Positions 7,548-38,072 of a DNA stretch of 64,000 bases are shown here, piece by piece (the stretch's first letter is position 1; each line of letters begins with the position of its first letter). Source of the stretch: Clostridia bacterium (lineage in GTDB: Bacteria; Bacillota; Clostridia; Oscillospirales; Acutalibacteraceae). The notes below the pieces were generated by a model. It was not told where the DNA came from, ran no database searches, and was given only the letters and a program-made list of their open reading frames with translations. Position numbers and translations under genes: made by a program. The stretch lies in contig JAFUHX010000057.1 of assembly GCA_017474045.1 (NCBI GenBank), positions 16,376 through 80,375 of the forward strand. The letters are read 5' to 3'.

Positions 7548-7668
7548 CCAAGCCGCAGGCTTGGCATATCATCACGCGTCAGCGTGTATATCATCGCCGT
7601 AGGCGCATATCATCAGCCGAAGGCTGTATTACCTTAGACTTGATGAGATACAATGCTTCGCCTTGATT
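7548..7668 (+). repeat. Hairpin array A (ATATCATC linker class)
   Basis: Successive mini-hairpins: CCAAGCC-GCA-GGCTTGG, CACGC-GTCA-GCGTG, CGCC-GTA-GGCG, AGCC-GAA-GGCT, then after an inverted linker (GATGAGATAC) the imperfect CAATGC-TTC-GCCTTG. The first units are separated by CATATCATC or TATATCATC. The array starts 3 nt after the tRNA-Leu terminator and its last TTG belongs to the -35 box of the next gene. Its two ends match those of array B read on the minus strand. Confidence 0.8.
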
Positions 7669-7691
7669 GCTTTATAGAATTATGGTATAAT
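7663..7691 (+). promoter_or_regulatory. Promoter of the EamA-like gene, fused to array A
   Basis: TTGATT 7663-7668, 17-nt spacer, TATAAT 7686-7691. The -35 box is the 3' end of the last hairpin of array A. Confidence 0.75.
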
Positions 7692-7728
7692 CTATTAAAC
7701 TAACTTGAATTTGTGGAGGTAAAATTGT

Positions 7729-8142
7729 ATGTGGTTTATATTCGCATTACTGTCTGCAATATTTGCAGCACTTACCTCTATACTGGCGAAGGTCGGCGTA
7801 GAAGGAGTCAACTCAAATCTTGCAACTGCAATCAGAACTGTTGTAGTAATAGTTATGGCTTGGGGAATGGTTTTCCTCACGAATGCACAAAACGGAATTA
7901 GTGAAATAAGCAAAAAGAGTTGGCTGTTTCTGATTTTATCGGGATTTGCAACAGGCGCCTCATGGCTTTGCTATTACAAGGCGTTACAGTTAGGTGATGC
8001 ATCAAAGGTTGTTCCTGTTGATAAATTAAGTGTTGTAATAACATCGGTTTTAGCTTTTGTATTTCTACACGAACAGTTTACAACCAAATCATTGATTGGG
8101 TGTATATTTATCGGCATTGGTACTTTGGTAATGGTTCTGTGA
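7729..8142 (+). CDS. EamA-domain (DMT superfamily) small transporter
   Basis: 137 residues with about five hydrophobic segments, a single EamA domain where most DMT exporters have two. It ends in the LVMVL edge typical of the domain and carries KVVPVDKLSVVITSVLAF, the conserved second-half motif. Single-domain forms act as homo- or hetero-oligomers; the solute is unknown. The start follows GTGGAGGT. The promoter lies at the end of hairpin array A. The next small gene starts 8 nt after its stop and is probably co-transcribed. Confidence 0.8.
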   Translation: MWFIFALLSAIFAALTSILAKVGVEGVNSNLATAIRTVVVIVMAWGMVFLTNAQNGISEISKKSWLFLILSGFATGASWLCYYKALQLGDASKVVPVDKLSVVITSVLAFVFLHEQFTTKSLIGCIFIGIGTLVMVL

Positions 8143-8149
8143 GGGTTGC

Positions 8150-8389
8150 ATGGCTATTGATTCAGTTCCCGATTTTATACCTGTTCTCGGTTTTTTAGAC
8201 GATGTTATAATACTTCCTGCGTTGATAACTTTGACATTGAAGCTGATTCCGAAATCGGTGTTTGCGGAATGTCAGGCACAATCTGAAGGTATGTGGCAAA
8301 ACGGTAAACCTAAAAAATGGTATTATGCGATACCTTTTGTTTTGATTTGGGTGGCTGTAATTACATTAATTGTCATAGCTTTTATTTAA
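8150..8389 (+). CDS. DUF1232 (YkvA-type) protein, N-terminally short
   Basis: 79 residues. The start MAIDSVPDFIPVLGFLDD is the core of the DUF1232 motif, which normally follows a 40-50 residue N-terminal segment and a membrane helix (..YLLSPIDLIPD..). Here the ATG falls inside that motif, so the N-terminal part is missing. A C-terminal helix at about residues 60-78 remains. It sits 8 nt after the EamA gene with a weak GAGGG site. It is either a minimal family member or a truncated remnant; no upstream homologous codons are visible. Confidence 0.6.
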   Translation: MAIDSVPDFIPVLGFLDDVIILPALITLTLKLIPKSVFAECQAQSEGMWQNGKPKKWYYAIPFVLIWVAVITLIVIAFI

Positions 8390-8614
8390 GTTATGGAAAA
8401 ACAAATTCCGATTTATCGAACAGCGCAGTTACCCACCTAATCACTTTTCTTTCCCTACTTACATACCGTTATACTGCTCTTTCGCAGAAAAAAAACACCT
8501 TTTATCCGTAGATAAAAGGTGTTTTTTTCAACTAAATCTACTTTTCTTGAGCAAGATCAGTTGCATGTCAAAATACGGCTTCTTCGGAAGAAGAAAATAA
8601 ATATTATTATGCTA
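8390..8614. other. Gap with a terminator, no gene recognised
   Basis: The stretch from 8390 to the PadR promoter holds only the terminator at 8491-8525. I see no coding sequence with a ribosome site on either strand. Confidence 0.6.
8491..8525 (+). terminator. Terminator of the EamA-DUF1232 unit
   Basis: AAAACACCTTTTATC pairs perfectly with GATAAAAGGTGTTTT around a 4-nt loop, then T-run. Confidence 0.85.
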
Positions 8615-8666
8615 TTGACAAATGTAATCAGTTATGCTACTTTATACATAGAGCTTCTATGCATAG
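8615..8666 (+). promoter_or_regulatory. Promoter and likely PadR operator
   Basis: TTGACA is at 8615-8620. The -10 region overlaps an inverted repeat, TATACATAG (8643-8651) and CTATGCATA (8657-8665), with one mismatch and a 5-nt centre. The right half also holds the perfect palindrome CTATGCATAG. The position over the start of transcription fits self-repression by the PadR protein encoded next. Confidence 0.6.
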
Positions 8667-8699
8667 CAGTTCTACACATTTTTTTAGGGAGGATTATCT

Positions 8700-9044
8700 A
8701 TGAACATAAAAAAAGAATTGACTAAAGGCAGCAGCGCAATGTTGGTTTTATCCGTACTTGAAAAAGAAGAGCTTTACGGTTACATGATAATTAAACGTAT
8801 TGCAGAAAAAAGCGATAATACTTTTATGTTTAAAGAAGGAACACTTTATCCTATTCTTCATAATTTTGAAGCTAACGGTTATGTTAAATCTTATTGGGTT
8901 GAGGCGGATGGAAGAAACCGCAAATATTACAAAATTACAAAAAAAGGACTGAAGGTTTTGGCAGAAACTAAAGAAGAATGGCAAGCTTATACTATGGCTG
9001 TCGGAAAGGTAATAGACGTAAATCCGGCATCCGTTTTCGCTTGA
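8700..9044 (+). CDS. PadR-family transcriptional regulator
   Basis: A 114-residue winged-helix DNA-binding protein. The recognition region ELYGYMIIKRI, the wing FKEGTLYPILHNFEANGYV and the DGRNRKYYKITKKG hairpin are the standard PadR signature, followed by a short C-terminal dimer helix. PadR regulators repress adjacent membrane-protein or efflux genes and usually their own promoter. The start at 8700 follows GGGAGG. It forms an operon with the membrane protein 14 nt downstream, the classic PadR plus HAAS-domain pair. Confidence 0.9.
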   Translation: MNIKKELTKGSSAMLVLSVLEKEELYGYMIIKRIAEKSDNTFMFKEGTLYPILHNFEANGYVKSYWVEADGRNRKYYKITKKGLKVLAETKEEWQAYTMAVGKVIDVNPASVFA

Positions 9045-9057
9045 ACGGGGTGAAGAT

Positions 9058-10536
9058 ATGAATAAAATTTCTGATTTTATTGATGAGTTTGTTCCCAAAA
9101 ACCTATCAAAAAAAAGACGCTTATTGCTGATAAGAGAACTGGAAAATCATCTGTTTGAAAAAATCGATTTTTACAAGGAAATAGGCTATGGTGATGAAGA
9201 CAGCAAAGAAAAAGCCATAGCTGATTTCGGCACCGACGAGGATATGAAAAAGAGTATATTTAATGAATTCGAAGAGCTTTACTCGGAAAAAAGATTTTTA
9301 GCTATACTCAGTCTTTTTGGGATATTATTAATGAATTATCTTTGTTTTCCTTTAGACATCTGGGTAACTTCCGCTGATTTTAATGATGATCCTACACCAC
9401 TGAGTTCATTAATAAGCTTTGGCATGATTTTGGCTGTTTGTGGGCTGATAACTTTTGCAAGAGTGAAAAAATACCGTAAAATGCTTGTTTCAATAGGCGT
9501 TGCTAATTTTGTCATAGGCGGAGTTTTCTTGCTTAATTTTTATTCGCAGTGTGCCGTTTACTCAATAGCACACAATTTAGTTTATCTTATAGATGTTTTT
9601 ACACCCGCTTCCATAGGTGATTATATCGTTTACGGGGATTATAATGTTGTTCCTTTGGTTGTTTGGGAAGCAATTCCGTTTATTTTTGCTATTTATTGCT
9701 TCATAGAAGCTGTAAAAATAAAAAGAGGGTCAGCTAAAAATATTATAAATCCAAAGAAAAAGATTATAATATTCTCCGTAGTATTCTCAATGGTTGCAAT
9801 TCTTACAAGCGCATTATTACCTAAAGGTCTCGCTTATAATAATGATTATAAGGTTTGGTTTAATGAATACAATAATTACATAAGTGATGAAAGTGAAACC
9901 ATGTTTGACAACATTTCAGTTGGTGATTCTTATTATAATGTAAGCAATATGCTGATTTCGCAGGGCTACACAACAGCAAAAGCTTATGAAGAAACATTAG
10001 ATAGGATTGAGCTTAAGCAGTTCAGAAACAGCTATGAAAAATTTAACTTTGCTGACGGATATGAGGTTTGGTTTAAAATCGAAAACAGACCCATAGGTAA
10101 CGGATTTGTGGGTATAAAACAAGAGAACGGAATAATTATTGCAAAAGGTATAGGCAATTTAGAAGAAACGATGTATGACGATGAGAATAATTTCGGCTAT
10201 TCAGAATTTGAGTTCAACCACAACATGCATTCGATGACGGATTATTTCAGAAGCTTAGAAAAAGGCAATTCAGAAGCTGAAATAATGAATAGGTTTGATG
10301 TAGATTTAGGCTCTGTATATTCAAAAAGATTTTCAATAGAAAACGAAGTTGAAAAGCATTATTACAGGCTTTATTGCTACGGTATAGTTAATCCGCAGGA
10401 GAAGAATTGGTACGAAAAAAGAGATAACAGATATATCGAACTTACATTCGAAAACGGTACGCTAAAAAGCGCAATTATGTATGACAAAATATATCTTGAT
10501 AAAAAATCTAAGATCATCTTTGAAGCTGTTGAATAA
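9058..10536 (+). CDS. HAAS-domain membrane protein paired with PadR
   Basis: 492 residues. Residues 1-75 form a helical HAAS/DUF1700-like module (ELENHLFEKIDFYKEIGYG, then a conserved AIADFGTDEDM). This is followed by about six membrane segments between residues 80 and 255, and a roughly 230-residue extracytoplasmic C-terminal domain. That domain may be a repeat (NISVGDSYYNVSNMLISQGY and a later, similar RSLEKGNSEAEIMNRF region). HAAS modules are typical partners of PadR repressors in Firmicutes. The C-terminal domain is not one I recognise. ATG follows GGGGTGAAG. Confidence 0.75.
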   Translation: MNKISDFIDEFVPKNLSKKRRLLLIRELENHLFEKIDFYKEIGYGDEDSKEKAIADFGTDEDMKKSIFNEFEELYSEKRFLAILSLFGILLMNYLCFPLDIWVTSADFNDDPTPLSSLISFGMILAVCGLITFARVKKYRKMLVSIGVANFVIGGVFLLNFYSQCAVYSIAHNLVYLIDVFTPASIGDYIVYGDYNVVPLVVWEAIPFIFAIYCFIEAVKIKRGSAKNIINPKKKIIIFSVVFSMVAILTSALLPKGLAYNNDYKVWFNEYNNYISDESETMFDNISVGDSYYNVSNMLISQGYTTAKAYEETLDRIELKQFRNSYEKFNFADGYEVWFKIENRPIGNGFVGIKQENGIIIAKGIGNLEETMYDDENNFGYSEFEFNHNMHSMTDYFRSLEKGNSEAEIMNRFDVDLGSVYSKRFSIENEVEKHYYRLYCYGIVNPQEKNWYEKRDNRYIELTFENGTLKSAIMYDKIYLDKKSKIIFEAVE

Positions 10537-10586
10537 ATTCAGTTTTACGGCTATAACATTATTAATTCAAAATTAAGCGATTTTAA

Positions 10587-10615
10587 TTGACTATTCGGAA
10601 ATTTACAGGTATTAT
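10587..10615 (+). promoter_or_regulatory. Strong promoter of a 17-codon transcription unit
   Basis: TTGACT 10587-10592, spacer of exactly 17 nt, TATTAT 10610-10615, with AT-rich flanks. Confidence 0.7.
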
Positions 10616-10645
10616 TTGAACATAAACAAATGAAGGAGCAGTTTT

Positions 10646-10699
10646 ATGTTTATTTTTCAACGAATTTGTTCAATGATGTTATCTGTTATGATGGGCTGA
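10646..10699 (+). CDS. Predicted 17-residue hydrophobic peptide
   Basis: MFIFQRICSMMLSVMMG. An AAGGAG site at 10633-10638 is placed ideally, 7 nt before the ATG, and a consensus promoter lies 30 nt upstream. The peptide has five internal or terminal Met in 17 residues, one Arg and one Cys, and otherwise hydrophobic residues, so it could insert in or bind to a membrane. The transcript continues through a perfect 9-bp hairpin to a strong terminator with no further gene. It may be a small membrane peptide, a toxin-like peptide or the coding part of a regulatory RNA. No family is recognised. Confidence 0.5.
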   Translation: MFIFQRICSMMLSVMMG

Positions 10700-10710
10700 C
10701 TTTTGTTAAC

Positions 10711-10731
10711 AACATAAAGCCACTTTATGTT
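10711..10731 (+). other. Perfect hairpin in the small transcript
   Basis: AACATAAAG and CTTTATGTT around CCA, beginning 12 nt after the stop of the 17-codon ORF. No T-run follows, so it is not a terminator. Confidence 0.6.
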
Positions 10732-10775
10732 GAACACCTTTCAATGATCAATTCCCTTTGATTGATGATAAATTT

Positions 10776-10805
10776 AAAGCACTTGCTCTGGCAAGTGCTT
10801 TTTAA
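10776..10805 (+). terminator. Terminator of the small transcript
   Basis: AAAGCACTTGC pairs perfectly with GCAAGTGCTTT around 4 nt, then TTTTTAATT. Confidence 0.85.
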
Positions 10806-10834
10806 TTCATGATAGAACATCTGAGATTAAGTTA

Positions 10835-10866
10835 AAAAAACGACGTGTCGAAACACGTCGTTTTTT
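10835..10866 (-). terminator. Terminator of the tRNA-Ser operon
   Basis: AAAAAACGACGTGT pairs with ACACGTCGTTTTTT around a CGAA tetraloop, directly at the 3' end of tRNA-Ser(GCT). Confidence 0.9.
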
Positions 10867-10956
10867 GGCGGAGAAGAGGAGACTCGAACTCCTGCGCCGG
10901 TTTCCCGACCTACGCCCTTAGCAGGGGCGCCTCGTCACCAACTTGAGTACTTCTCC
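10866..10956 (-). tRNA. tRNA-Ser(GCT)
   Basis: 91 nt with a long variable arm. Acceptor GGAGAAG pairs with CTTCTCC, the anticodon is GCT, and CCA is encoded. Confidence 0.95.
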
Positions 10957-10992
10957 GAGTTGCTGATGTCAGGTATAAAATTATAAAAAAAA

Positions 10993-11081
10993 TGGCGGAG
11001 AGAGTGGGATTCGAACCCACGGTACGTTGCCGTACGACGGTTTTCAAGACCGCTCCGTTATGACCGCTTCGGTACCTCTCC
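10993..11081 (-). tRNA. tRNA-Ser(TGA)
   Basis: 89 nt. Acceptor GGAGAGG, anticodon loop CTTGAAA gives TGA, long variable arm, encoded CCA. Co-transcribed with tRNA-Ser(GCT), 36 nt downstream. Confidence 0.95.
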
Positions 11082-11096
11082 GTTTGTTGCCTTGAA

Positions 11097-11125
11097 ATAT
11101 TATCACAATAAACGGACATTGTCAA
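11097..11125 (-). promoter_or_regulatory. Promoter of the tRNA-Ser pair
   Basis: On the minus strand TTGACA (11125-11120), 17-nt spacer, TAATAT (11102-11097). Confidence 0.8.
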
Positions 11126-11278
11126 GTCTTTTCTTGAAAAAAATCAAAAATTTCTCTTTTTAAAATTTTTTTGAAAAACATTTGACAAAAAACTTTTCTA
11201 ATGATATAATTCATACAATTCGCTTTAATTCTCTAAAGCTTTAAAGCGTTAAATTTTATATTTCAAAAGGTGGCTATT

Positions 11279-12247
11279 ATGAGAAAAGGTAATCTTATGA
11301 GCGTTAGACCTGACATCAAGGTTCTTGACGCTACTATCAGAGACGGCGGTCTTTGCAATAATTTTGAATTTTCAGATGAATTCGTCAGAGAGCTTTATAA
11401 AGCAAACATTAAATGCGGCGTTGACTATATGGAATTTGGCTACAAGGCAAGCCGTCAGCTTTTTAAGGAAGAAGACTTTGGCAAATGGAAGTTTTGCAAA
11501 GAAGAAGACTTAAGAGCAATCGTCGGAGACAACATTTCAGACATGAAGATTTCTGTTATGGCAGACGTTGGAAGATGTGATTTTAAAGAAGATTTTCTTC
11601 CAAAAAGCGAAAGCGTTATAGATATGGTGCGAGTTGCCTGCTATATTCACCAGATTCCCGCAGCAATTGAAATGATTGAACATTTTCATTCTCTGGGATA
11701 TGAAACGACCTGCAACATTATGGCAATTTCTCAAGCCGGAACATCTCAGGTTGAAGAAGCCCTTAATATGCTTTGCCAATCCAGCGTTAATGTTATTTAT
11801 CTTGTTGACAGTTACGGTTCTCTTTATCCCGAAAACGCTTCTGAGCTTTCAAAAATATATATCAATGCGGCTGAAAAGGTTGGAAAAAGTGTTGGTTTCC
11901 ACGCTCATAACAACCAGAACCTCGCTTTTGCCAACACAATTGACACCCTTTCATATGGTGTTTCTTATCTTGACACAACTGTTCAGGGCATAGGACGCGG
12001 CGCCGGTAACTGCGCAACGGAGCTTCTTTTAGGATTTTTGAAAAATCCTAAATATAATCTTTATAGTATTCTTACCTTTATTGAAAAATACATGCTTCCG
12101 TTAAAAGAAACTGTTTCTTGGGGCTATGATCTCCAATATATGTTTACAGGTCAGCTCAACCGCCATCCAAGAGATGCTATGAGCTTTTCAGCCGACGGAA
12201 GAAAAGACTATTGCGAATTTTATAAATATCTTCTCGACAACGAATAA
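11279..12247 (+). CDS. DRE-TIM metallolyase family aldolase-like protein
   Basis: 322 residues. The N-terminal LDATIRDGGLCNNF is the catalytic DxTxRDG loop of the HMG-CoA lyase/4-hydroxy-2-oxovalerate aldolase/isopropylmalate synthase fold. GFHAHNN around residue 205 supplies the metal-binding HxH, and GIGRGAGNC the Gly-rich loop. These enzymes form or cleave C-C bonds at 2-oxo acids using a divalent metal. The C-terminal regulatory or communication domains of the synthases are absent, so a lyase or aldolase is likelier. The exact substrate cannot be assigned. ATG 11279 follows AAGGTGG; a second ATG at 11297 also has a possible ribosome site. Confidence 0.8.
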   Translation: MRKGNLMSVRPDIKVLDATIRDGGLCNNFEFSDEFVRELYKANIKCGVDYMEFGYKASRQLFKEEDFGKWKFCKEEDLRAIVGDNISDMKISVMADVGRCDFKEDFLPKSESVIDMVRVACYIHQIPAAIEMIEHFHSLGYETTCNIMAISQAGTSQVEEALNMLCQSSVNVIYLVDSYGSLYPENASELSKIYINAAEKVGKSVGFHAHNNQNLAFANTIDTLSYGVSYLDTTVQGIGRGAGNCATELLLGFLKNPKYNLYSILTFIEKYMLPLKETVSWGYDLQYMFTGQLNRHPRDAMSFSADGRKDYCEFYKYLLDNE

Positions 12248-12299
12248 AAACGGGCTGTGAAAAAATGCAGACCGAATAAAACCAATCCTTAAACAATCA

Positions 12300-12330
12300 G
12301 GCTGAAAACAAATGTTTTCAGCCCTTTTTT
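12300..12330 (+). terminator. Terminator after the aldolase-like gene
   Basis: GGCTGAAAAC pairs with GTTTTCAGCC, 4-nt loop, then CTTTTTT. It reaches into the convergent thiN stop region. Confidence 0.85.
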
Positions 12331-12946
12331 ATTCCTGAGTTTCCCACATAATAAGAAGAATTCCGTCCTCAACGGATATTACGGCTTCTTCTCCCACAAA
12401 CTCATTGCTGACACCCATTGGACAATCTGAGCGAAGAGAAAAATTATTTATCTCATATTTCAAGCCTTTAATGGTTACTCCTTTGCTTTCAGGAGAAAGA
12501 GAAAAAACAGAAACTGTTCCTTTATTGTTTTTTGAAAAGCTCATGACGGAATTTTTTATGGCAGTTGCGCAGTAATCGTGGCTGAATATGGTTGCTCTTG
12601 CGCCCTTTTGACAAACAAAGGAAAGAAGCTGAAGGTTTGCAAAGCTATGGTCAGGTCTTCCACCCAACATTCCAAACAGTCTGAGTTCATTATAGCCTTT
12701 TTCAAGAGCAAGATTAATTGCAAGATGAGTGTCGGTTTCGTCCTTTTCGCAAGGCAGAACAACCGTTTCAACTCCACTCGGAACTTTGCCGTAGGAATCA
12801 AAATCACCAATAGCAAGGTTTGGCTTTATCCCTGCCTTTTCAGCATATTTAAGTCCGCCGTCAGCGCAGATAACGTAATCATCAATCTTGGGGTTTATTT
12901 TGAGGTTTTTGCACTCCCCTGCTCCGATTATATAGCAAACAGACAT
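12329..12946 (-). CDS. thiN: Thiamine pyrophosphokinase
   Basis: A 205-residue enzyme converting thiamine to thiamine diphosphate with ATP in the cytoplasm. Family motifs are ICADGGLKYA near residue 27, IGDFDS near 46, EKDETDTHLA near 67 (acidic metal-binding residues) and LGGRPDHSFANL near 93. The beta-rich thiamine-binding C-terminal domain follows. ATG at 12946 is preceded by AAGGCGG. No TPP riboswitch is visible upstream. It stands alone, divergent from the symporter gene. Confidence 0.92.
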   Translation of the reverse strand: MSVCYIIGAGECKNLKINPKIDDYVICADGGLKYAEKAGIKPNLAIGDFDSYGKVPSGVETVVLPCEKDETDTHLAINLALEKGYNELRLFGMLGGRPDHSFANLQLLSFVCQKGARATIFSHDYCATAIKNSVMSFSKNNKGTVSVFSLSPESKGVTIKGLKYEINNFSLRSDCPMGVSNEFVGEEAVISVEDGILLIMWETQE

Positions 12947-13047
12947 TCAAACACCGCCTTTCATCTGATTGATTATAGCACCTATAAAGCTCAAAAACAA
13001 GGTCATAGTCACTTTTAGAAAAACATATATTTTTAAAGGTGATTTTT

Positions 13048-14721
13048 ATGTTGAGAAGCTTCGTTGAAAAAGCAACCGAACTTGTGTGGGGTCCTCCGAC
13101 GGTTATTTTATTGTTTTTAACCGGTGTTTATTTAACTTTTAAGTCAGGTTTTTTTCAATTTTCTCATATTTTTCTTTGGTTAGATAAAACGCTTTTTTCC
13201 CTTTTCCGTTCTAAGAAGGAAAAGAAAAAAAGCGGCGGCGTTAGTCAGTTTCAGGCTGTTTCAACTGCATTGGCTTCAACAATCGGAACAGGCAACATTG
13301 CGGGAGTTGCCACAGCGCTGACAATTGGCGGACCGGGAGCAGTTTTCTGGATGTGGCTGTCTGCAGTTTTTTCAATGATGACTGCTTTTTCCGAAAACAC
13401 TTTAGGTGTTTTTTTCCGACTTAAAGATAAGGAAGAAAATTTTATCGGCGGGCCTATGTATTACATAAGAGACGGATTAAAAAACAAAAAAATTATTGGT
13501 AATTTTTCTTCTGCTCTTTCAAAGCTATATGCTTTTTTTCTTGTCGGTGCCGCTTTTGGAATAGGCAGCATGACACAGGCTAACACAGTTTCTTCTTCGC
13601 TTAATTCTTCTTTTAATGTTTCTTTTTATTTAACTGCAATTATCATTACAGCAATTACAGCACTTATAATTTCAGGCGGAATTAAACGAATCGGAGAAAT
13701 TACCGAAAAGCTTGTTCCTTTTATGGCTCTTTTTTATATTTCAGCCTCTTTGCTGGTTTTTCTTTATGATATCGGAAACATCAGCTATGTTTTCTCTTCA
13801 ATCTTTCAAGGCGCTTTTTCATTTAATTCAGCTGCAGGCGGCATTGTGGGCTTTGCAGTTAAAGAATGTGTTTCCGTTGGAATAAGACGGGGAATTTTTT
13901 CTAACGAAGCCGGTTTAGGCGCTTCTGTTACTGTCAGCTCACTTTCAGATGTTACGGAGCCGGTAAGACAAGGCATGTGGGGAATTTTTCAGGTTTTTGT
14001 TGACACAATTATTGTTTGCACCATGACAGCTTTTGTTATAATTTCAACTCAGGTTGATGCTGTTAATTTTGAAACAGCAATAAACGATTGTTCAAAGAGC
14101 TCACATTACGTTTATATTGGTAACAATACTGATTTTTTTGAAGGAAGAGTCTTTTTAACAGGAAATATTAAAAACAATACTTTTAAAGTGAACAGCGAGG
14201 GAACGGTTATTAAAACAGAAAAAGAAACCTTTACAAATATTATGCTTTTGACTAAAGGTGAAAACGGCGAAATCAAGCTTTCAGAGGTTAACGGTGTTTC
14301 CCTTGTGGGACTGGCTTTTAAAGAACGATTTGGCTCTTTTTCGGCAATTATTGTTTGTGTTGCTGTTTGTCTTTTTGCATTTTCAACTATAATCGGCTGG
14401 TCATGCTACGGAGAAAAGGCATCACAGTTTCTTTTTGGTAAAAAAGCAATTAAAATTTATAAGCTTCTTTACATTATTTTCGTCTTTGTCGGCTCAATAA
14501 CAGAGCTTACAGTAGTTTGGGGAATATCTGACATTTTTAACGGTCTTATGGCTATTCCAAACCTTATTTCACTCTTGTTTTTATCGGGTACAGTCAGGAA
14601 AATTACTCAAAACTATTTAAGGAGAAAGAAAGGGCTGAAAATTGAACCAATGCTTTCTTTTGACCGTGATATTCAGCTTGAACTTGAACTTTCAAGCCTT
14701 GACGGCAACAAAGATTTATGA
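13048..14721 (+). CDS. AGCS-family sodium:alanine symporter with an extra insertion
   Basis: 557 residues and about 11 membrane segments. Signature motifs are GTGNIAGVATALTIGGPGA near residue 80 and SNEAGLGASVTV near 285. Members import alanine or glycine with Na+. Family proteins usually have 450-490 residues; here about 80 hydrophilic residues (roughly 340-425) are inserted between two late helices, predicted outside the cell. ATG 13048 is favoured over GTG 13039 because AAAGGTGA is 5-6 nt upstream of the ATG. A small ArsC/Spx-like gene follows 41 nt later. Confidence 0.88.
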   Translation: MLRSFVEKATELVWGPPTVILLFLTGVYLTFKSGFFQFSHIFLWLDKTLFSLFRSKKEKKKSGGVSQFQAVSTALASTIGTGNIAGVATALTIGGPGAVFWMWLSAVFSMMTAFSENTLGVFFRLKDKEENFIGGPMYYIRDGLKNKKIIGNFSSALSKLYAFFLVGAAFGIGSMTQANTVSSSLNSSFNVSFYLTAIIITAITALIISGGIKRIGEITEKLVPFMALFYISASLLVFLYDIGNISYVFSSIFQGAFSFNSAAGGIVGFAVKECVSVGIRRGIFSNEAGLGASVTVSSLSDVTEPVRQGMWGIFQVFVDTIIVCTMTAFVIISTQVDAVNFETAINDCSKSSHYVYIGNNTDFFEGRVFLTGNIKNNTFKVNSEGTVIKTEKETFTNIMLLTKGENGEIKLSEVNGVSLVGLAFKERFGSFSAIIVCVAVCLFAFSTIIGWSCYGEKASQFLFGKKAIKIYKLLYIIFVFVGSITELTVVWGISDIFNGLMAIPNLISLLFLSGTVRKITQNYLRRKKGLKIEPMLSFDRDIQLELELSSLDGNKDL

Positions 14722-14762
14722 TATATTATCACGGTAAAAAAACAACAAGCAGGGGTATTTCA

Positions 14763-15331: not shown

Positions 15332-15346
15332 TATAACTATAAAAGC

Positions 15347-15470: not shown

Positions 15471-15494
15471 ATATAGTCATAAGTACAGTCATTT

Positions 15495-16100: not shown

Positions 16101-16148
16101 AATTTGCCCTCCCCTTTTTAATTCTATTAAAAGAAAAGGAGAAATATA

Positions 16149-16177: not shown

Positions 16178-16182
16178 TTTTT

Positions 16183-29149: not shown

Positions 29150-29160
29150 AGCTACCTCCG

Positions 29161-29754: not shown

Positions 29755-29788
29755 ATTCTCATCTCCTTTGAAGGATTTTGTGGAAAGC

Positions 29789-32240: not shown

Positions 32241-32276
32241 AGCTCCACCTCCTTTTGATATTTTTAAGCAGGAAAA

Positions 32277-32588
32277 TTATTTTAAAATGCAGGTCTTTAC
32301 CATTTCAATCAGTTCTCTATAGTTTTTTTCAGAGTCAGAAATCATTTTTCTTTCTCTTAAATCAGCCAATGTGTTGGCTTGTTTTACATATCCGTCTGCA
32401 TCATCAATTGCCTTTCGGATAATTTCTTCAGCTTTTATATTCGCCTGATTAATTCTCTTTTCATAAATCACCTCAGCCTCAAGCTTTGCCTGAAGTCTGA
32501 TTTCTTCAGCAATTTTGGTAGCTTTGGTTTCTTCTTTTTTTGCAACAGCTTCAGCTTTTAAAACTGCATTAATCATTTCAGCTGCCAA
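32277..32588 (-). CDS. ntpF: V-type ATPase peripheral-stalk subunit (G/H type)
   Basis: 103 residues, almost one long coiled coil rich in Ala, Glu and Lys, of the V-ATPase H/G family that pairs with subunit E. The start is TTG 32588 with GAGGTG 7 nt upstream; that site is inside the last codons of the kinase-like gene, so the two are coupled. It heads the ATPase structural genes. Confidence 0.85.
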   Translation of the reverse strand: MAAEMINAVLKAEAVAKKEETKATKIAEEIRLQAKLEAEVIYEKRINQANIKAEEIIRKAIDDADGYVKQANTLADLRERKMISDSEKNYRELIEMVKTCILK

Positions 32589-33936
32589 AAGATATCACCT
32601 CTGATAAATAAATTATTCCCTGATTAAGAGTTGCTTGAACATCTGAAACAGAATTTTCAGCGCCTCTGAGACTTAAAGACACAATAAACAAAATCATAAC
32701 CAAAATTATTGCCGCTATTATTGCCGCCAGCTTTTTAACATCAAGAGGGATCTCGGTATGAAGCGACTTGTTTTTCGGAACAGAGGTATAAGCAACTGCT
32801 TTACGGCGCTTAACCGGTTTTTTATCTGAATCAAGATAGTCAAAGGGAGAAACATCGGGAACGGGAATTTCTTCATGAAGAGAAACGGGAAACTCAGGAT
32901 ATGAAATTTCTTCCGCCTTTTCTTCCTTGTATTCCACAACATCGGCAATGGCATCAGCCTCGTCACCTGTGGGAGCAGAATAGGAATATATATCGTCATA
33001 TTCAGTCTCAGAAGCCGGCTTGTTTCTTAATGCGGCATTTAAATCTGAAAGCATTTGTTTCGGTGTCAGATATCTGTCAGTTTCTTTAAAAGCGCATGCC
33101 TTGGAAATTACCTTCATGAGCATAGGTGCTTGAGTTGCAGGTTCCGGAAAGCTCATTCCCAGACATCTGTTTTCTTTTGAACGGTTAAGACCGTTAAGAG
33201 TTACCTCCTGGGGATACTGTTCTGTAAAGGGAAGTCTTCCGCGATTTATGAGCATATAGAGAATCAGACCAAGAGAATAAGTGTCACTTGTGCAATTAAT
33301 GCTGTCGTTTTTCAGATATTCGGGAGCCATATAGTGCTGCGTGCGCTTATAGGCAACGGAGGTTTTTGAAGGTTCAAGAAGACTGAAGGAGCCGAAGTCT
33401 CCAAGCTTGCAGACTCCTTTTGCGTCAAACAAAATGTTTTCAGGCTTAAGATTCGGATAAATATAGCCAAAATCGCGGCATCGAATAAGAGATTTGCAAA
33501 TTTCTATTCCAAGTCTTATTGTTTCTTCAAGAGTAAAAGAAAATTCATTAAGAAGATCAGAAAGAGAACGCATTTCTTCAAGTCTTATGAGAATAATTTT
33601 TCCTTTTCCGTCTGAAGTCTCTCTGACTTCAACATCTTCATATTTAACAAAGCGCTTTCCTCCGTCAGAGGTCTGAATGGTTTTGATGTTTCTTTTTATG
33701 TTTTCAATTATTTCATCAACATAAGCAGATTTGTCGTCTTTTTCAATTTCACCAAGAGGGTTAAAGCCCTTGCTTTCGCTTCTGTTGCTGTTTACTCTGA
33801 TTGTTTTTAAAACACTTCTTGTTTTCTTTTGGTTTTCATCAACTGAAACGAGGGTATATACCCTTCCGTCTGTTCCTGTTCCGATACATTTTTCTGTGTT
33901 CCATTTTCCAAACACACCTTCAAAAGACTGAGCCAT
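32578..33936 (-). CDS. Membrane-anchored Ser/Thr kinase-like protein, predicted pseudokinase
   Basis: 452 residues. The kinase domain occupies about 12-305: Gly-rich loop IGTGTDGRVY (18-27), VLK lysine K44, DFG 180-182 and APE 204-206. The catalytic loop reads YPNLKPEN at 160-167 instead of HRDxKPxN, so the proton-accepting Asp is Asn162. A Pro/Glu-rich linker (310-400) leads to one membrane helix (403-423) and a short tail. With intact Lys and DFG it may bind ATP but probably transfers phosphate poorly or not at all. It overlaps the first ATPase gene by 11 nt. No PASTA or FHA domain is present. Confidence 0.85.
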   Translation of the reverse strand: MAQSFEGVFGKWNTEKCIGTGTDGRVYTLVSVDENQKKTRSVLKTIRVNSNRSESKGFNPLGEIEKDDKSAYVDEIIENIKRNIKTIQTSDGGKRFVKYEDVEVRETSDGKGKIILIRLEEMRSLSDLLNEFSFTLEETIRLGIEICKSLIRCRDFGYIYPNLKPENILFDAKGVCKLGDFGSFSLLEPSKTSVAYKRTQHYMAPEYLKNDSINCTSDTYSLGLILYMLINRGRLPFTEQYPQEVTLNGLNRSKENRCLGMSFPEPATQAPMLMKVISKACAFKETDRYLTPKQMLSDLNAALRNKPASETEYDDIYSYSAPTGDEADAIADVVEYKEEKAEEISYPEFPVSLHEEIPVPDVSPFDYLDSDKKPVKRRKAVAYTSVPKNKSLHTEIPLDVKKLAAIIAAIILVMILFIVSLSLRGAENSVSDVQATLNQGIIYLSEVISFGS

Positions 33937-34114
33937 TTAATTCATTCCTTTATGTTTAATTTATATTTTCAAGTAAAACTCAAGTTAAAACTGATAATTG
34001 TATATACTTAGTTTATATTATACCATATATAGACAAAAAAAGCCACTTATTTATTTAATTAATTTGGTTTTTTCCGATAATTTTTTATTAAAATTTTTTA
34101 GAGAGGAAAGTGTA

Positions 34115-34143
34115 TTGACAATAACGGATTAAACAGTTAAAAT
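34115..34143 (+). promoter_or_regulatory. Promoter of the DUF1292 gene
   Basis: TTGACA 34115-34120, 17-nt spacer, TAAAAT 34138-34143. Confidence 0.75.
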
Positions 34144-34170
34144 ATAAACAGAAAAAAGGAGGCGGAAATT

Positions 34171-34512
34171 ATGAGCAAAGACAAAGATCTTATTGAAACA
34201 GAAGATGATTTTTTCAGCGAAAACGACCTTATTACCGTTATTGATGACGACGGAAGAGAATATGTTTTTGAAGAATTGGACAGAATTGAGCTTGATAACG
34301 GCAAAAAGTATATTGCAGTTGTTCAGGTTCCTCAAAATGACGACGAGGTTCTCACTAACTCAAACGAAATGATCGTTCTTGAGGTTATTGAAAAAGGTGG
34401 CGAAAACTATCTTCTTAACATTGAAGACGAGGAAACAGAAGATGAAGTCGGCAAAATTTTCATCGAAAGACTTTCAGAAGAATACGGCTTCGAGTTTGAT
34501 GAAGAAGAATAA
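34171..34512 (+). CDS. DUF1292 family protein (YrzB-like)
   Basis: A 113-residue, strongly acidic protein. ENDLITVIDDDGREYVFEEL and IVLEVIEKGGENYLLNIEDE are the DUF1292 pattern. In many Firmicutes this gene lies in the ireB-ruvX-yrzB cluster; here ireB is about 4.5 kb away and ruvX is not in the window. The function is unknown. AGGAGG precedes the ATG. Confidence 0.87.
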   Translation: MSKDKDLIETEDDFFSENDLITVIDDDGREYVFEELDRIELDNGKKYIAVVQVPQNDDEVLTNSNEMIVLEVIEKGGENYLLNIEDEETEDEVGKIFIERLSEEYGFEFDEEE

Positions 34513-34540
34513 TTTTTGTTTTTTTGAATAAAATGTTTAT

Positions 34541-34738
34541 ATCCTGCCGTGTTCGGTCACTTTGGCCGATATAACCCAACACCTATATTAAAGGAGAGAC
34601 GCTCCGTTGAAAGATTGCAGACCTCCCAAGATTTATCGGTATATCCGGTAATGAGGACGAAGGGAGCGTGAAGTCAATGGGCTATCACCACCCTGCGAAG
34701 AGCAGGTTATACTACGGTCATCCCGGCATGGCGGGTGA
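34541..34738 (+). ncRNA. ssrS: Probable 6S RNA
   Basis: About 198 nt between the DUF1292 stop and a terminator, with no ORF. The ends pair over 9 bp, CCTGCCGTG (34543-34551) with CATGGCGGG (34727-34735). Inside, ACGCTCC (34599-34605) pairs with GGAGCGT (34663-34669). A GTGTTCGG...AACAC stem lies near the 5' end. A rod closed at both ends with a central loop, of this length and with the GTGTTCGG...AACACCTATATTAAA segment I recall from Firmicute 6S RNAs, supports the call. 6S RNA binds sigma-A RNA polymerase in stationary phase. The family assignment is from memory and not confirmed by a covariance search. Confidence 0.6.
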
Positions 34739-34743
34739 ATTTA

Positions 34744-34770
34744 GCAGAGGTTTTCCTCTGTTATTTTTTT
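34744..34770 (+). terminator. Terminator after the 6S-like RNA
   Basis: CAGAGG pairs with CCTCTG around a TTTT loop, then TTATTTTTTT. Confidence 0.8.
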
Positions 34771-34801
34771 ATTTTCAGGGAAAAACAATAACGGTGATCA
34801 A

Positions 34802-35149
34802 ATGAAAAAGAAGCTTTGTTTTTTCGGCTTATTGACCGGACTTATTAACGCAGCTTTCGGAGCCGGCGGCGGTATTGTTTGCGTTTCCCTTTTGAAAAAA
34901 ATGGGAATTGAACAAAAAAGAGCTCAGGCAACAACCGTTTGCGTTATTCTTCCGCTGACTGTTATAACCTCAACATTTTATTTATTAAAGGGCTATCTCA
35001 GCCTTTCAGACAGCTTTATTTATATTCTGCCCGGTTTTTTTGGTTCTGTTCTCGGATCTTTGATTTTGAAAAAAATCAACAACGACTTTTTAGGAAAGCT
35101 TTTTTCGCTTTTCATGATATGGGCAGGACTAAGGATGATTTTCAGATGA
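34802..35149 (+). CDS. TauE/SafE exporter family, first half-protein
   Basis: 115 residues and four membrane segments with the family motif LINAAFGAGGGIVCV at residues 14-28. Full-length TauE/SafE proteins are about 250 residues with two such repeats; here the two halves are separate genes. Its stop overlaps the next start by ATGA, so both are made together, probably as a heterodimer. The family moves sulfite, sulfonates or related anions; the substrate is unknown. ATG has a weak GGTGAT site. Confidence 0.8.
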   Translation: MKKKLCFFGLLTGLINAAFGAGGGIVCVSLLKKMGIEQKRAQATTVCVILPLTVITSTFYLLKGYLSLSDSFIYILPGFFGSVLGSLILKKINNDFLGKLFSLFMIWAGLRMIFR

Positions 35150-35502
35150 ATTTTCAACTAATCATTTTTTCTTTCCTTGCCGCAGTATTGGGCTCTATGG
35201 GTTTTGGCGGCGGAGCAATTCTGATTATTTATCTGACAGCTATTGAAAATTTTCCTCAACTCAAAGCACAGGGAATAAATCTGATTTTTTTCATTCCATG
35301 CGCACTATTTGCAGCTTTAATTTATTCGAAGCAAAAGCTTATTGAAAAGAAATTTCTTCCATGGCTGATTATTTTCGGCGCCGTTGGTGTCCTTCTGGGG
35401 CTTTGGATAATTGATTTTATCGACACATCCCTTCTTTCAAAGCTATTTGGTTCTTTCCTTGTTATCATCGGTCTGAAAGGTATTTTTAAAAAGAAAAAAT
35501 GA
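35146..35502 (+). CDS. TauE/SafE exporter family, second half-protein
   Basis: 118 residues and four membrane segments with AAVLGSMGFGGGAILI at residues 12-27, the paralogous repeat motif. It overlaps the first half by ATGA. Positively charged ends (KKKK tail) suggest the C-terminus is inside. It is the partner of the preceding gene, not a degraded copy. Confidence 0.8.
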   Translation: MNFQLIIFSFLAAVLGSMGFGGGAILIIYLTAIENFPQLKAQGINLIFFIPCALFAALIYSKQKLIEKKFLPWLIIFGAVGVLLGLWIIDFIDTSLLSKLFGSFLVIIGLKGIFKKKK

Positions 35503-35526
35503 GCTGTAATTAATATTTTACAGCTC
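35501..35526. terminator. Stem-loop between convergent genes
   Basis: GAGCTGTAA and TTACAGCTC around 8 nt. T-runs on either side are short. Confidence 0.5.
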
Positions 35527-35533
35527 ATAAATT

Positions 35534-36289
35534 TTAAGTATTAGCCCAATAAACCAAGGCGATTAAAACAAGAAGAAAAACTACAGCTTTAAGAATTCCC
35601 GAAAGGCAACCCCCTTTTTCGCTTTCATTATCAATTTTTTGACTGATTCTTTGAAGTTTTTCTGCTCTTTGATTAGGAGAAAGCAAGTATAATTTTTTAA
35701 TCACACTCTTAACATAAAAATCTGAAGAACAAAATCTGAGAATTATATATTTCGGAATAAATAAAAACAAGTCAGGAAGAATAAGACCCCAATCTATAAA
35801 AAGAATAAATTTTTTCATAAGCTTCAGATATTTCTTTCGGTTTGTGACATAAATATCATCAAAGCTGATTTCGCCCTTACCTGACTCAACCTCAGCCTGA
35901 GGGAAAACAAGACAAACGGGAAAGAAATCGAAAAAGTCTGCAATTGAGCCATAGCAAAAGGCATATTCGCCCTCAAAGCAATCAACGGTAACATTTTGAA
36001 AATCAGATTTCAGCTTAAAAGTTGCACAGCTGAAAGCCGCAGCTTCCGGTATTTTTTCAAGAAACTTTCGGGAAAGCTTATATATTATTCTATGAATAAG
36101 CTTTCCTTCTTTACAATCCTCCTCAAAGCCTTCAGCTAAATCAGGCGATGAAAACTCTGCGCTGAAAACAGACTCAGAAGAGCCGACAAAAACTTCAACG
36201 CTTGAATCAGGATCGATTGAATAGCTTTTACTGCCTGTTTTTATATTAAGCTTACATAAAGAACTATGATTTTTAAAAGTTATATACAT
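35534..36289 (-). CDS. Hypothetical protein with C-terminal membrane helix
   Basis: 251 residues. A beta-rich N-terminal domain (1-150), a hydrophobic stretch around 165-185, and a final membrane helix at about 228-248 (LKAVVFLLVLIALVYW), making it a possible tail-anchored protein. No family recognised. Codon use matches the neighbours. ATG 36289 follows TGAGG. It lies 34 nt after the YhcH gene, probably in one transcript. Confidence 0.65.
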   Translation of the reverse strand: MYITFKNHSSLCKLNIKTGSKSYSIDPDSSVEVFVGSSESVFSAEFSSPDLAEGFEEDCKEGKLIHRIIYKLSRKFLEKIPEAAAFSCATFKLKSDFQNVTVDCFEGEYAFCYGSIADFFDFFPVCLVFPQAEVESGKGEISFDDIYVTNRKKYLKLMKKFILFIDWGLILPDLFLFIPKYIILRFCSSDFYVKSVIKKLYLLSPNQRAEKLQRISQKIDNESEKGGCLSGILKAVVFLLVLIALVYWANT

Positions 36290-36323
36290 CTCAGCCTCAC
36301 AAGATTAAATTAAAATTCCTTTT

Positions 36324-36782
36324 TCAGACTTTAACTTTGACAACGATTTTTTTAACCGATGCCTTTTCTCCACCAAAGCAAAGACCGGGCTTATGAATAT
36401 CTGAAGGAAAGAAAATTGCATATTCACCCGCCTCAAGAACAAGTCTTCCTGCCTTATGATTATTTTTGAAAAACTCAATATCTTTTGCTGAGTCATAGCT
36501 GATTTCAGAAATTGCCTTTGAAACGCTCATAACATCCATAACTTCAATTCCGGAAACGATAAACTGAATATCGATATAATTTCTGTGACCTTCAAAAGAA
36601 CCGTCTGATTCAAAATTTGAAATATATTCCTGAACAGAAGCAAAAACATTATCTCCGTCAATTTCGTATCGTCCCACGGGAAGATTTTCCTCAACAGCTC
36701 TTTTTATAAAGCTAAAGCTTTTTTCAAAATTTTTGTGGGTTTCAAAATATTTATTGCAATTATTTAAAGAATCAAAAATCAT
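36324..36782 (-). CDS. YhcH/YjgK/YiaL family protein
   Basis: 152 residues. GHRNYIDIQFIVSGIEVM, the FFKNNHKAGRLVLEAGEYAIFFPSDIHKP double-His motif and the KKIVVKV end are the family signature of this cupin-like beta barrel. A characterised member (NanQ) is a sialic-acid anomerase; others act in sugar metabolism. ATG 36782 follows GAGGGG. Its promoter -35 box is the end of hairpin array B. Confidence 0.87.
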   Translation of the reverse strand: MIFDSLNNCNKYFETHKNFEKSFSFIKRAVEENLPVGRYEIDGDNVFASVQEYISNFESDGSFEGHRNYIDIQFIVSGIEVMDVMSVSKAISEISYDSAKDIEFFKNNHKAGRLVLEAGEYAIFFPSDIHKPGLCFGGEKASVKKIVVKVKV

Positions 36783-36819
36783 AATATCCCCTCTGTTAAC
36801 TAATTTAATTATCGAAATC

Positions 36820-36848
36820 ATTATATAGCAGGCAAAACAAAAAATCAA
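36820..36848 (-). promoter_or_regulatory. Promoter of the YhcH gene, fused to array B
   Basis: Minus strand: TTGATT (36848-36843), 17-nt spacer, TATAAT (36825-36820). The TTG of the -35 closes the last hairpin of array B. Confidence 0.8.
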
Positions 36849-37049
36849 GGCGAAGCCTTGTATATCATCAATTCCGCAGGAATTGCATATCATCAACCTC
36901 GAAGAGGTTGTATATCATCAATGCGAAGCATTGCATATCATCAAGCCGACGGAAATACACACCTTCGGTGTGATGAGATACAACACGGCTATGCCGTGTT
37001 GATGATATACACGCTTACGCGTGATGATATACCAAGCCTGCCGGCTTGG
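36843..37049 (-). repeat. Hairpin array B (ATATCATC linker class)
   Basis: On the plus strand nine mini-hairpins: CAAGGC-GAA-GCCTTG, AATTCC-GCA-GGAATT, AACCTC-GAA-GAGGTT, AATGC-GAA-GCATT, an irregular unit, ACACC-TTC-GGTGT, AACACGGC-TAT-GCCGTGTT, CACGC-TTAC-GCGTG and CAAGCC-TGCC-GGCTTG. The first four linkers are (T/C)ATATCATC; from the middle on they are the reverse, GATGATATAC or GATGAGATAC, so the whole is an inverted repeat. Read on the minus strand, its ends match those of array A. Confidence 0.85.
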
Positions 37050-37053
37050 ATAA

Positions 37054-37089
37054 AAAAAATCCGACAAGTCGAAACTTGTCGGATTTTTT
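37054..37089 (-). terminator. Terminator of the orphan gene
   Basis: A perfect 16-bp stem with a CGAA tetraloop and T-tracts on both strands, between the orphan stop and array B. Confidence 0.9.
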
Positions 37090-37121
37090 GTGTTTACAGC
37101 TTAAAATGGCAACAATATGAA

Positions 37122-37847
37122 TCAATATAAAATTGCAAAATTTTCCTTTATTTCAAAAAACAATTTTACTACAGAACATTCAGAATTATCAGAAAGTCTG
37201 CCATCAAGAATGAATTCATAAATGCCTTTCTTCCTTTTAAAAATAAAAATACATTCAGAACCGCATTCATAACGCATTAAACTTTTCCTCAAGACTGTTG
37301 TTAGCATTTTTGATTCATTATTAAATATTACAAAAGAATCAGCAGATAAATCAATATCATTAACATTTCGCAATCTGATATTGTTATTTCTTATAATATT
37401 GCCGTTTTCAATTACGTTATCAAATAATTCTTTTAAATTGTTTTCTACAACAAAAAAACTATCGTATTTAATCAGAGACGGAAGACAATATTTATTCTCT
37501 ATCCACTCTTTATAAAATTCAGGACCTATACAAAATGATTTGTCTTTTGATATTATGTACGATGATTTAATATGTTTTTTAATTTTCGAAAAAACTAAAT
37601 TCAGAATCGGGTCATCATTCTCAATAATAAATGTAGCACATTGAAGTTGATTTAGTGTATAGAAACACGGAATAAAATTTATATATGTTTCGTCATTATT
37701 GCCGAAATAAAATGTTGGCAAACCTTTTGTTATCGCTTTTATATCATCATAATCTGCGTTGATACATTTAACATCATATTCGGAAAATATATTTAATATA
37801 TTCTTCAAATCATTATCATTAAGATATGTATAGATAATTTTGCCCAT
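37122..37847 (-). CDS. Orphan hypothetical protein, 241 aa
   Basis: I recognise no family. The protein is cytoplasmic, rich in Asn, Ile and Lys, with no repeats or membrane segments. Its codon use is more AT-rich than that of the neighbours, with many ATA and AAT codons. It has its own promoter and terminator and is boxed in by two hairpin arrays beside tRNA-Arg, so it looks like an acquired, self-contained cassette. ATG 37847 follows AGGTGATAAT. The segment ECIFIFKRKKGIYEFILDG near the C-terminus suggests beta hairpins. Confidence 0.7.
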   Translation of the reverse strand: MGKIIYTYLNDNDLKNILNIFSEYDVKCINADYDDIKAITKGLPTFYFGNNDETYINFIPCFYTLNQLQCATFIIENDDPILNLVFSKIKKHIKSSYIISKDKSFCIGPEFYKEWIENKYCLPSLIKYDSFFVVENNLKELFDNVIENGNIIRNNNIRLRNVNDIDLSADSFVIFNNESKMLTTVLRKSLMRYECGSECIFIFKRKKGIYEFILDGRLSDNSECSVVKLFFEIKENFAILY

Positions 37848-37864
37848 ATTATCACCTAAGGTTC

Positions 37865-37893
37865 ATTGTATAACAACAAACCTTAAAAGTCAA
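37865..37893 (-). promoter_or_regulatory. Promoter of the orphan gene, next to array C
   Basis: Minus strand: TTGACT (37893-37888), 17-nt spacer, TACAAT (37870-37865). Array C ends 6 nt before the -35 box. Confidence 0.75.
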
Positions 37894-37899
37894 ATTTGT

Positions 37900-38072
37900 T
37901 TGCCCGGAGGGCAACTTCGTCGTGCCGTAGGCACACTTCATTGCGTCAGCACTTCATTTGCCGTAAGGCAACTTCATTCGTTTATGTCCGCTTTTCGGAC
38001 AATGAAGTTGACAGCAAGCTGTCAAATGAAGTACTCGCTTCGCTCATAATGAAGTTATGTCCTGCGGACATA
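37900..38072 (-). repeat. Hairpin array C (ACTTCATT linker class)
   Basis: On the minus strand: TATGTCC-GCA-GGACATA, a GC-GAA-GC unit, TGACAGC-TTG-CTGTCA and a GTCCG/CGGAC unit separated by ACTTCATT (plus-strand AATGAAGT at 38048-38055, 38025-38032, 38001-38008). The linker then inverts (plus-strand ACTTCATT at 37971-37978, 37951-37958, 37935-37942, variant at 37913-37920) between TGCC-TTAC-GGCA, a TGCG/TGCTGACGCA-like unit, GTGCC-TAC-GGCAC and TTGCCC-TCC-GGGCAA. Same plan as array B with a different linker. Confidence 0.85.

Follow-up and report, generated by a model that had tools for sequence, protein, structure and literature searches.

Group IIC introns insert next to intrinsic terminator stems, the accessory protein Avd of diversity-generating retroelements (DGRs) is a four-helix bundle related to the 23S rRNA IVP proteins, and the heptamer repeats of cyanobacteria lack, to our knowledge, a settled role. 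PMC2267715 presents itself as a survey of stem-loop repeat families, and in PMC4679880, which describes heptamer repeats, the terms "four helix" and "intervening" are absent from the main text. As passages of PMC4990558 (2016) put it, the function and origin of the intervening sequences (IVSs) of rRNA were unclear over 25 years after their discovery, and S23p was a protein without known function; the same passages cite an early proposal that the open reading frame (ORF) of the IVS could serve mobility and describe the S23p of Xanthomonas as a toroidal homopentamer of four-helix bundles. The present study concerns three hairpin arrays in a 64,000-nt stretch of the genome of a Clostridia bacterium of the family Acutalibacteraceae (assembly GCA_017474045.1, contig JAFUHX010000057.1, positions 16,376 to 80,375; hereinafter, the window). 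Comparison with other genomes suggests that such arrays are probably the 5′ ends of terminator-targeted mobile cassettes of the IVP type. Among the papers listed in searches of a mostly open-access literature, none by its title or abstract opening linked IVP genes to hairpin or heptamer arrays or described a terminator-to-promoter rule.

The first-pass annotation of the window had reported three hairpin arrays, each running from a terminator to the promoter of the next gene and oriented with it, with a −35/−10 spacing of 17 nt. All three coordinates hold, as do the order, the orientation and the spacing in each array, and the terminator-to-promoter rule is real in all three cases. Array 1 (7546..7668, plus strand; first hairpin starting at 7546, last hairpin at 7651–7668) lies behind a tRNA-Leu(CAG) gene (7415..7502, plus strand, found with ARAGORN), and an intrinsic terminator read from the sequence (7502..7545, plus strand) occupies the interval between them; its promoter, TTGATT-17-TATAAT (7663..7691, plus strand), has a −35 box that overlaps the last hairpin, and the first gene past it encodes an EamA-type transporter half (PF00892; 7729..8142, plus strand). 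The other two arrays belong to a two-cassette chain on the minus strand behind a tRNA-Arg(CCG) gene (38291..38367, ARAGORN). In the first cassette, a bidirectional terminator (38077..38107) abuts array 3 (37900..38076; first hairpin 38076–38056, last hairpin 37914–37900), which is followed by the promoter TTGACT-17-TACAAT (37865..37893), a gene for a 241-aa protein without a Pfam match at E 0.01 or better (37122..37847) and the conserved 3′ cassette motif TTGTTGCCATTTTAAGCTGTAAACAC with an A-tract after it (37084..37115). In the second, another bidirectional terminator (37054..37089) abuts array 2 (36843..37051; first hairpin 37051–37032, last hairpin 36860–36843), whose promoter, TTGATT-17-TATAAT (36820..36848), again has a −35 box overlapping the last hairpin, and the cassette gene encodes a protein of the YhcH/YjgK/YiaL family (PF04074; 36324..36782, the Pfam search being made on 36324–36785).

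Each array is an imperfect palindrome, in which hairpins and linkers in one sense are followed by a centre and then by hairpins and linkers in the inverted sense. The 8-nt linker between the hairpins is ATATCATC in arrays 1 and 2 (family A; in array 1 the inverted form GATGAGAT stands at 7642) and ACTTCATT in array 3 (family B), where three copies precede the inversion. This mid-array flip of the linker, a long-range helix, the conserved 3′ motif and a protein partner are additions to the first-pass annotation. In family A, ATT directly follows the terminal hairpin (e.g., CAAGGCTTCGCCTTG), whose 3′ arm supplies the TTG of the −35 box TTGATT; at least five of the six letters of TATAAT are present at exactly 17 nt in 26 of 55 distinct terminal-unit sequences (1.1 in shuffled tails), the 55 including a few misfits, at least two of which are a first hairpin read backwards. 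In family B, the promoter lies downstream of the last hairpin at a distance that varies between cassettes. On its other side, the array with its promoter adjoins the T-tract of a terminator. Judged from the sequence, array and promoter form a single module, the 5′ end of a cassette, and the terminator-to-promoter rule would follow because this module is movable and is bounded by the A/T tracts of terminators.

The general plan of the cassettes includes an A-tract, a terminator stem and a T-tract, then the hairpin array, the promoter, a ribosome-binding site, one or more genes, the 3′ motif (in this genus) and an A-tract. Among 34 genomes of the same genus that were compared, the whole cassette that carries array 3 (37085..38082, minus strand) recurs in a second species (G153, locus L199) with 97.9% identity over 999 bp, and the tRNA-Arg locus of that species is only 71% identical to the window locus over about 600 nt. 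The identity begins in the T-tract past one terminator stem and ends in the A-tract that precedes another; neither stem is the same in the two genomes. A second whole cassette, bearing an IVP gene, is shared by genome G138 and RGIG8518, a metagenome-assembled genome (MAG) from water deer, over 1007 bp with 96.8% identity; its ends also lie in A/T tracts, and one terminator stem is common to both copies. In these two whole-cassette cases, the shared sequence is a discrete unit with sharp ends found in different contexts.

Parts of cassettes are exchanged as well. One ORF together with its 3′ motif stands behind a family B array in the host genome (G000; 2.5 Mb in 105 contigs, with a completeness of 96.85%) and behind a family A array in G133, the junction being the start codon, and one 5′ module is shared up to the ATG by G000, G153 and G154 with different genes downstream. 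The 3′ motif, TTGTTGCYATTTTRAGCTGTAAACACAAAAA or GGTTCYAAAATGAGACGTACCTCCAAAAA, closes many cassettes of this genus directly before the next terminator; as a universal feature of IVP cassettes it was rejected, since it is restricted to this genus and a small number of relatives. The cargo in the window comprises the YhcH-family protein, the EamA-type protein and the 241-aa protein, and translations read by eye extend the list to a 653-aa secreted protein and to membrane, GNAT-like and kinase-like proteins. The gene of the 653-aa putative secreted protein is present as cargo in two species with 90% nucleotide identity (L111, 14436–16397; L205, 6476–8437). One family A array of an IVP-less cassette in the host genome matches the array of the IVP cassette in RGIG8518 with 98% identity over 259 nt, which supports a derivation of IVP-less cassettes from IVP cassettes.

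The protein in question, of about 115 aa, was met beside the arrays in 6 of 20 loci from other genera that had been chosen for family A arrays. It is a member of PF05635, the family of 23S rRNA IVP (S23p) four-helix bundles, with chain 2rld as the closest solved structure (E 1.7e-15). Of the 150 genomes of the bacterial family, 70 encode PF05635 proteins (68 of them over the curated cut-off), and none of 14 control genomes does. By hand count over the 150 genomes, an IVP gene is present in 21/25 genomes with at least three strict family A matches and in 49/125 others; with G021, G100 and G129 set aside, since their matches are not hairpins by eye, the figures are 21/22 and 49/128 (p = 4.5e-7), the matched letters having been inspected for part of the genomes. 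The genes beside the window arrays that were scanned gave no PF05635 match.

A further link is given by the DNA upstream of IVP genes taken without regard to arrays. In 65 of 87 PF05635 genes with enough upstream DNA, the preceding 250 nt contain a hexamer four or more times, compared with 14 of 82 control ORFs of the same loci (p = 2e-14) and 41 of 2180 shuffled upstream sequences; 60 further PF05635 loci had been added mostly in score order. A looser control (57/323 ORFs) could overlap IVP arrays and included array-chosen loci, both of which are excluded from the 82. A second set of 80 loci was fetched by IVP similarity only, most of them titled as Clostridia or Oscillospiraceae MAGs from ruminant guts; 78 have an IVP by profile, 74 of these have 200 nt or more of upstream DNA, and the repeat is present in 72 of the 74. 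Hairpin arrays, where visible, occupy roughly positions −200 to −50 relative to the IVP start codon. These data bear on the idea that the arrays are repeats of the REP (repetitive extragenic palindromic), BIME (bacterial interspersed mosaic element) or MITE (miniature inverted-repeat transposable element) kind, spread by a separate transposase such as RAYT (REP-associated tyrosine transposase, Y1_Tnp). The arrays are indeed intergenic, palindromic and multicopy, with inverted units as in BIMEs; however, the co-occurring protein is IVP, the shared units are gene-bearing cassettes and not bare repeats, and Y1_Tnp (PF01797) has no match in G000 while 5 of the 14 control genomes match, which makes such an origin highly improbable.

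The position of the arrays points to terminators as targets. Of 56 family A and B arrays in fetched loci whose terminator side could be defined, 29 lie no more than 200 nt downstream of a tRNA gene, and 13 of the remaining 27, counted by eye, are preceded in their locus by a further array of these families. A same-strand tRNA gene lies within 550 nt upstream of the IVP gene in 39/69 loci of the second set and 35/83 of the first (2/200 and 2/98 in the controls), and a strong terminator stands just upstream of the array in 31/75 and 17/67 loci of two sets, compared with 0.1 expected from shuffles. Fourteen tRNA types are represented upstream of IVP in each set and, therefore, a tRNA-specific integrase is unlikely. 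In four species of the genus, a tRNA-Arg gene is followed by a terminator without an A or B array within the stretch examined. Insertion into a 23S rRNA helix was not encountered: the window has no 23S rRNA match, its arrays lie behind tRNA-Leu and tRNA-Arg, and IVP loci are often behind tRNA genes. What the first-pass annotation had seen in the window extends beyond it, since the placement of arrays elsewhere is linked to tRNA genes and terminators and is not random, and similar arrays occur in many genera.

Chains of single-gene cassettes, each with a structured site, were found behind tRNA genes on contigs C2, C43 and C69 and in the window. Such chains, in which structured sites separate one-gene cassettes, recall the attC recombination sites of integrons, an identity that we consider the least credible of all those weighed: the cassettes have their own promoters and occupy many tRNA loci, and no integron integrase (TIGR02249) over the cut-off was found in G000, the weak hits there being of a kind found in 14/14 controls.

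The same observations can be set against a regulatory explanation, according to which the array is an operator or a supercoil-sensitive promoter element, read by IVP or by a host protein, and the shuffling is passive, by homologous recombination or transformation at tRNA hotspots. The array ends in or beside the −35 box, where folding or binding would affect transcription, the 5′ modules are exchanged at the start codon, as selection for expression would favour, and repeated arrays and terminators make homology available. However, in both whole-cassette comparisons the identity ends in A/T tracts outside the array, the presence of arrays behind 14 tRNA types per set and behind other cassettes suggests terminators as the targets, and the same array is kept with cargo genes unrelated to IVP. 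We regard this explanation as rather unlikely, if the most serious of the competing ones.

The repeated word varies with the IVP subfamily. At least three copies of ATATCATC are present in 23 IVP loci, and the 14 of them that were listed all have the NYLx-YSEQLAT type of protein; ATTTCATC is likewise present in nine, all of the ENKLADLSTEF-like type, and the other words include GCTTCAT, CATCATT and ACTTCAC. When 109 of 112 IVPs were compared pairwise, with identical cores merged beforehand, a word was shared by 108 of the 129 pairs with at least 80% identity and by 130 of the 2502 pairs with 40–60%; the correlation of IVP identity with word sharing was r = 0.48 in the Mantel test (0/5000 permutations). 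The word of the nearest IVP was also used for prediction in 69 new IVPs, after exclusion of five that were near-identical to members of the first set. At least three copies of the predicted word were present in 37/42 cases at 80% identity or more and in 10/18 at 70–80%, and random words gave 12%, 7% and at most 2% at ≥80%, 70–80% and <70% identity, respectively. At the level of sequence, the cassette structure, its sharing between genomes and the match of array and IVP are all evident. Among the options that the first-pass annotation had left side by side, a mobile repeat is favoured by cassettes in differing contexts with ends at terminators, and a putative protein-binding or single-stranded-DNA-binding array is favoured inasmuch as the array type tracks a protein family; a roadblock gained no specific support.

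Arrays are numerous in the host genome. Strict two-linker patterns matched G000 24 times for family A and 30 times for family B, with no match of the reversed control, and blastn searches of G000 gave 29 matching pieces for array 2 and nine for array 3; linker-first detection was used, as a strict hairpin-first detector missed many arrays. Searches of array DNA against plasmid and phage collections gave no match, and cmscan of the window at the gathering threshold gave no match of curated Rfam families at the arrays. Near a contig end in G000 there is also an array of a third family, with the linker ATTTCAC (L115, 11313–11468).

Single-strand folding was far more stable than in dinucleotide shuffles for array 2 (z −10.1) and array 3 (z −8.1), with 0/200 shuffles as good; array 1, with z −2.3 and 4/200 shuffles as good, looks partly decayed. 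The compensatory nature of the stems, asserted by the first-pass annotation, was confirmed: of 19 distinct terminal hairpins of 15 nt, 19, 17 and 18 have a Watson–Crick pair at the variable positions 3, 4 and 5, respectively, compared with 11.1, 9.8 and 12.9 after the 3′ letters were redealt. In IVP loci, 192 of 309 segments between repeated words contain a perfect stem of at least 4 bp (38 when shuffled). In addition, among 124 IVP arrays in which the word changes orientation once, 103 have at least 8 nt at the 5′ end that are exactly complementary to the array centre (5.1 with shuffled centres, 12.2 with centres from other families), and the helices of 9 nt or more comprise 74 distinct sequences. 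An earlier helix window omitted the first hairpin (55/124 at 8 nt or more) and was widened after the data had been seen, with the controls redone alike. The 5′ strand of this long-range helix is in most cases supplied by the first hairpin, through its 5′ arm, and in heptamer types by the terminator. Within the window, the helix is full in array 3 (11 nt; 5′ strand TTTATGTCCGC at 38064..38074 and 3′ strand GCGGACATAAA in the array centre at 37981..37991, minus strand) and partial in array 2 (7 nt), and it was not found in array 1. In four heptamer-type elements upstream of IVP (L156, L174, L177 and L366), a second copy of the terminator 3′ arm lies in the loop of a long palindrome, and the terminator 5′ arm therefore has two partners.

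Pairing of this kind is also what an RNA-level element would display, one in which a read-through transcript is processed, e.g., by RNase III, and bound by IVP in the manner of 23S rRNA IVSs, with mobility mediated by RNA. The compensatory stems and the conserved long-range helix look like selection on RNA, and IVS elements, according to passages of PMC4990558, encode S23p and are excised from rRNA. On the other hand, the array lies past the terminator and upstream of the cassette promoter and would be transcribed mainly by read-through, and a reverse transcriptase domain (RVT_1, PF00078) has no match in G000, while 3 of the 14 controls match; an RNA element is thus improbable. Still less probable is that the stems covary through template-switch (quasi-palindrome) correction in arrays without function. 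Such correction does give compensatory changes without selection, but it leaves the constant linkers, the long-range helix, the −35 spacing, the tRNA placement and the IVP match unexplained.

The association of four-helix-bundle genes with repeated words goes beyond Clostridia. Matches were found in 19 plasmid and 2 phage records, of which 8 and 2 were fetched, and in 10/10 of these loci the 260 nt preceding the gene contain a hexamer four or more times, three Nostoc loci being close relatives. In all eight plasmid loci (Treponema, Planktothrix, Nostoc, Euhalothece and Dolichospermum), heptamer repeats flank the gene on both sides, and in seven of the eight they are inverted, by eye, between the sides. 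These heptamers resemble the short tandemly repeated repetitive (STRR) sequences of cyanobacteria. From IMG/VR, 12 of 13 viral loci were used, those with an IVP by profile, and 6 of the 12 contain a word at least four times. In the Planktothrix agardhii plasmid locus (L378), the heptamer-flanked gene lies between genes annotated as DISARM DrmD and BREX PglX.

Several other features were recorded in passing. A GC-rich repeat of about 120 nt (window 38118–38236) lies between the tRNA-Arg terminator and that of array 3 and has copies in many genomes of the same genus, several of them directly behind terminators; it may be a second terminator-associated element. The other RNA elements of the window, a T-box leader (42552–42789, minus strand) and a tetrahydrofolate (THF) riboswitch (54302–54403, minus strand), are ordinary. 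Contigs C94 and C28 of G000 (L116 and L117) contain a duplicate block with ORFs of 492, 119, 660 and 208 aa, which stops close to where 40 nt at the contig ends match array 2.

The mechanism that we propose for the mobile cassettes is as follows. IVP would bind its cognate linker on the hairpin-folded array, single-stranded or in cruciform, and would mark or pair the cassette ends, leading to insertion into the A/T tracts that flank terminator hairpins; cutting and joining would presumably be carried out by a host function. Cassettes with an IVP gene would be the self-sufficient form, and those of the window would be cargo derivatives, which kept the array and promoter with another gene (YhcH, EamA or the 241-aa protein) and are either moved in trans or now stranded.

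A number of observations weigh against this proposal. The filled and empty tRNA-Arg sites come from different species. G000 has only two PF05635 genes, neither of the subfamily paired with ATATCATC, and none of 202 IVP loci reaches three copies of ACTTCATT, the word of family B. The repeat test was failed by 22/87 IVP loci and by 6/12 viral loci, and some IVP subfamilies (the MNSPLLDKSLDF group, L270, L273, L275, L276 and L278) have no clear array. Word prediction succeeded in 0/9 cases at less than 70% IVP identity, and the agreement of word and IVP may partly reflect shared descent of adjacent DNA, although stems differ between arrays that keep one word. Whole cassettes make up 2 of 12 cross-locus rows, the other ten being partial modules or tRNA loci, and the two whole cassettes disagree on a terminator stem as part of the moving unit, both stems differing in the G000/G153 pair and one being shared in the G138/RGIG8518 pair. 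Loose matches of the two forms of the 3′ motif in 185 IVP loci numbered 15 and 9, compared with 6 and 15 for reversed controls, and about four were clear.

With more reserve, a broader suggestion can be put forward, namely that four-helix-bundle (IVP) proteins define a new class of mobile elements, in which they read a family-specific 7–8-nt word repeated in arrays of hairpins or heptamers and thereby mobilise both themselves and captured cargo, as promoter-bearing cassettes, into terminator A/T tracts behind tRNA genes; this code might also account for the 23S rRNA IVSs and the cyanobacterial heptamers. The match of protein and repeat word offers a concrete partner for both of these puzzles and, if the suggestion is true, gut Clostridia load promoter-ready genes behind tRNA genes compactly and without a recognisable recombinase.

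Compared with described systems, the cassettes would resemble group IIC introns in insertion beside terminator stems and differ from them in that G000 has no reverse transcriptase match, which also separates them from the DGRs with their accessory protein Avd. With REP/BIME elements and their RAYTs they share intergenic, palindromic, multicopy units in inverted pairs; the arrays described here, however, have constant linkers and variable stems and are shared together with genes, and G000 has no Y1 transposase. As in integrons, chains of single-gene cassettes are separated by folded DNA sites, but here the cassettes have their own promoters, a longer repetitive array and many tRNA loci, with no integrase found in G000. 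The STRRs and the TAACTGA repeats of Beggiatoaceae are likewise 7-nt direct repeats with a family-specific word, from which the window arrays differ by the hairpins between the words. As for the 23S rRNA IVSs, passages of PMC4990558 point to a likeness in the PF05635 protein, horizontal transfer, inverted repeats and insertion at stem-loops of structural RNA genes; the cassettes appear to target the terminator behind tRNA genes instead of 23S helices and are distinguished by an array of linkers and hairpins, a promoter of their own, cargo genes and the formation of chains.

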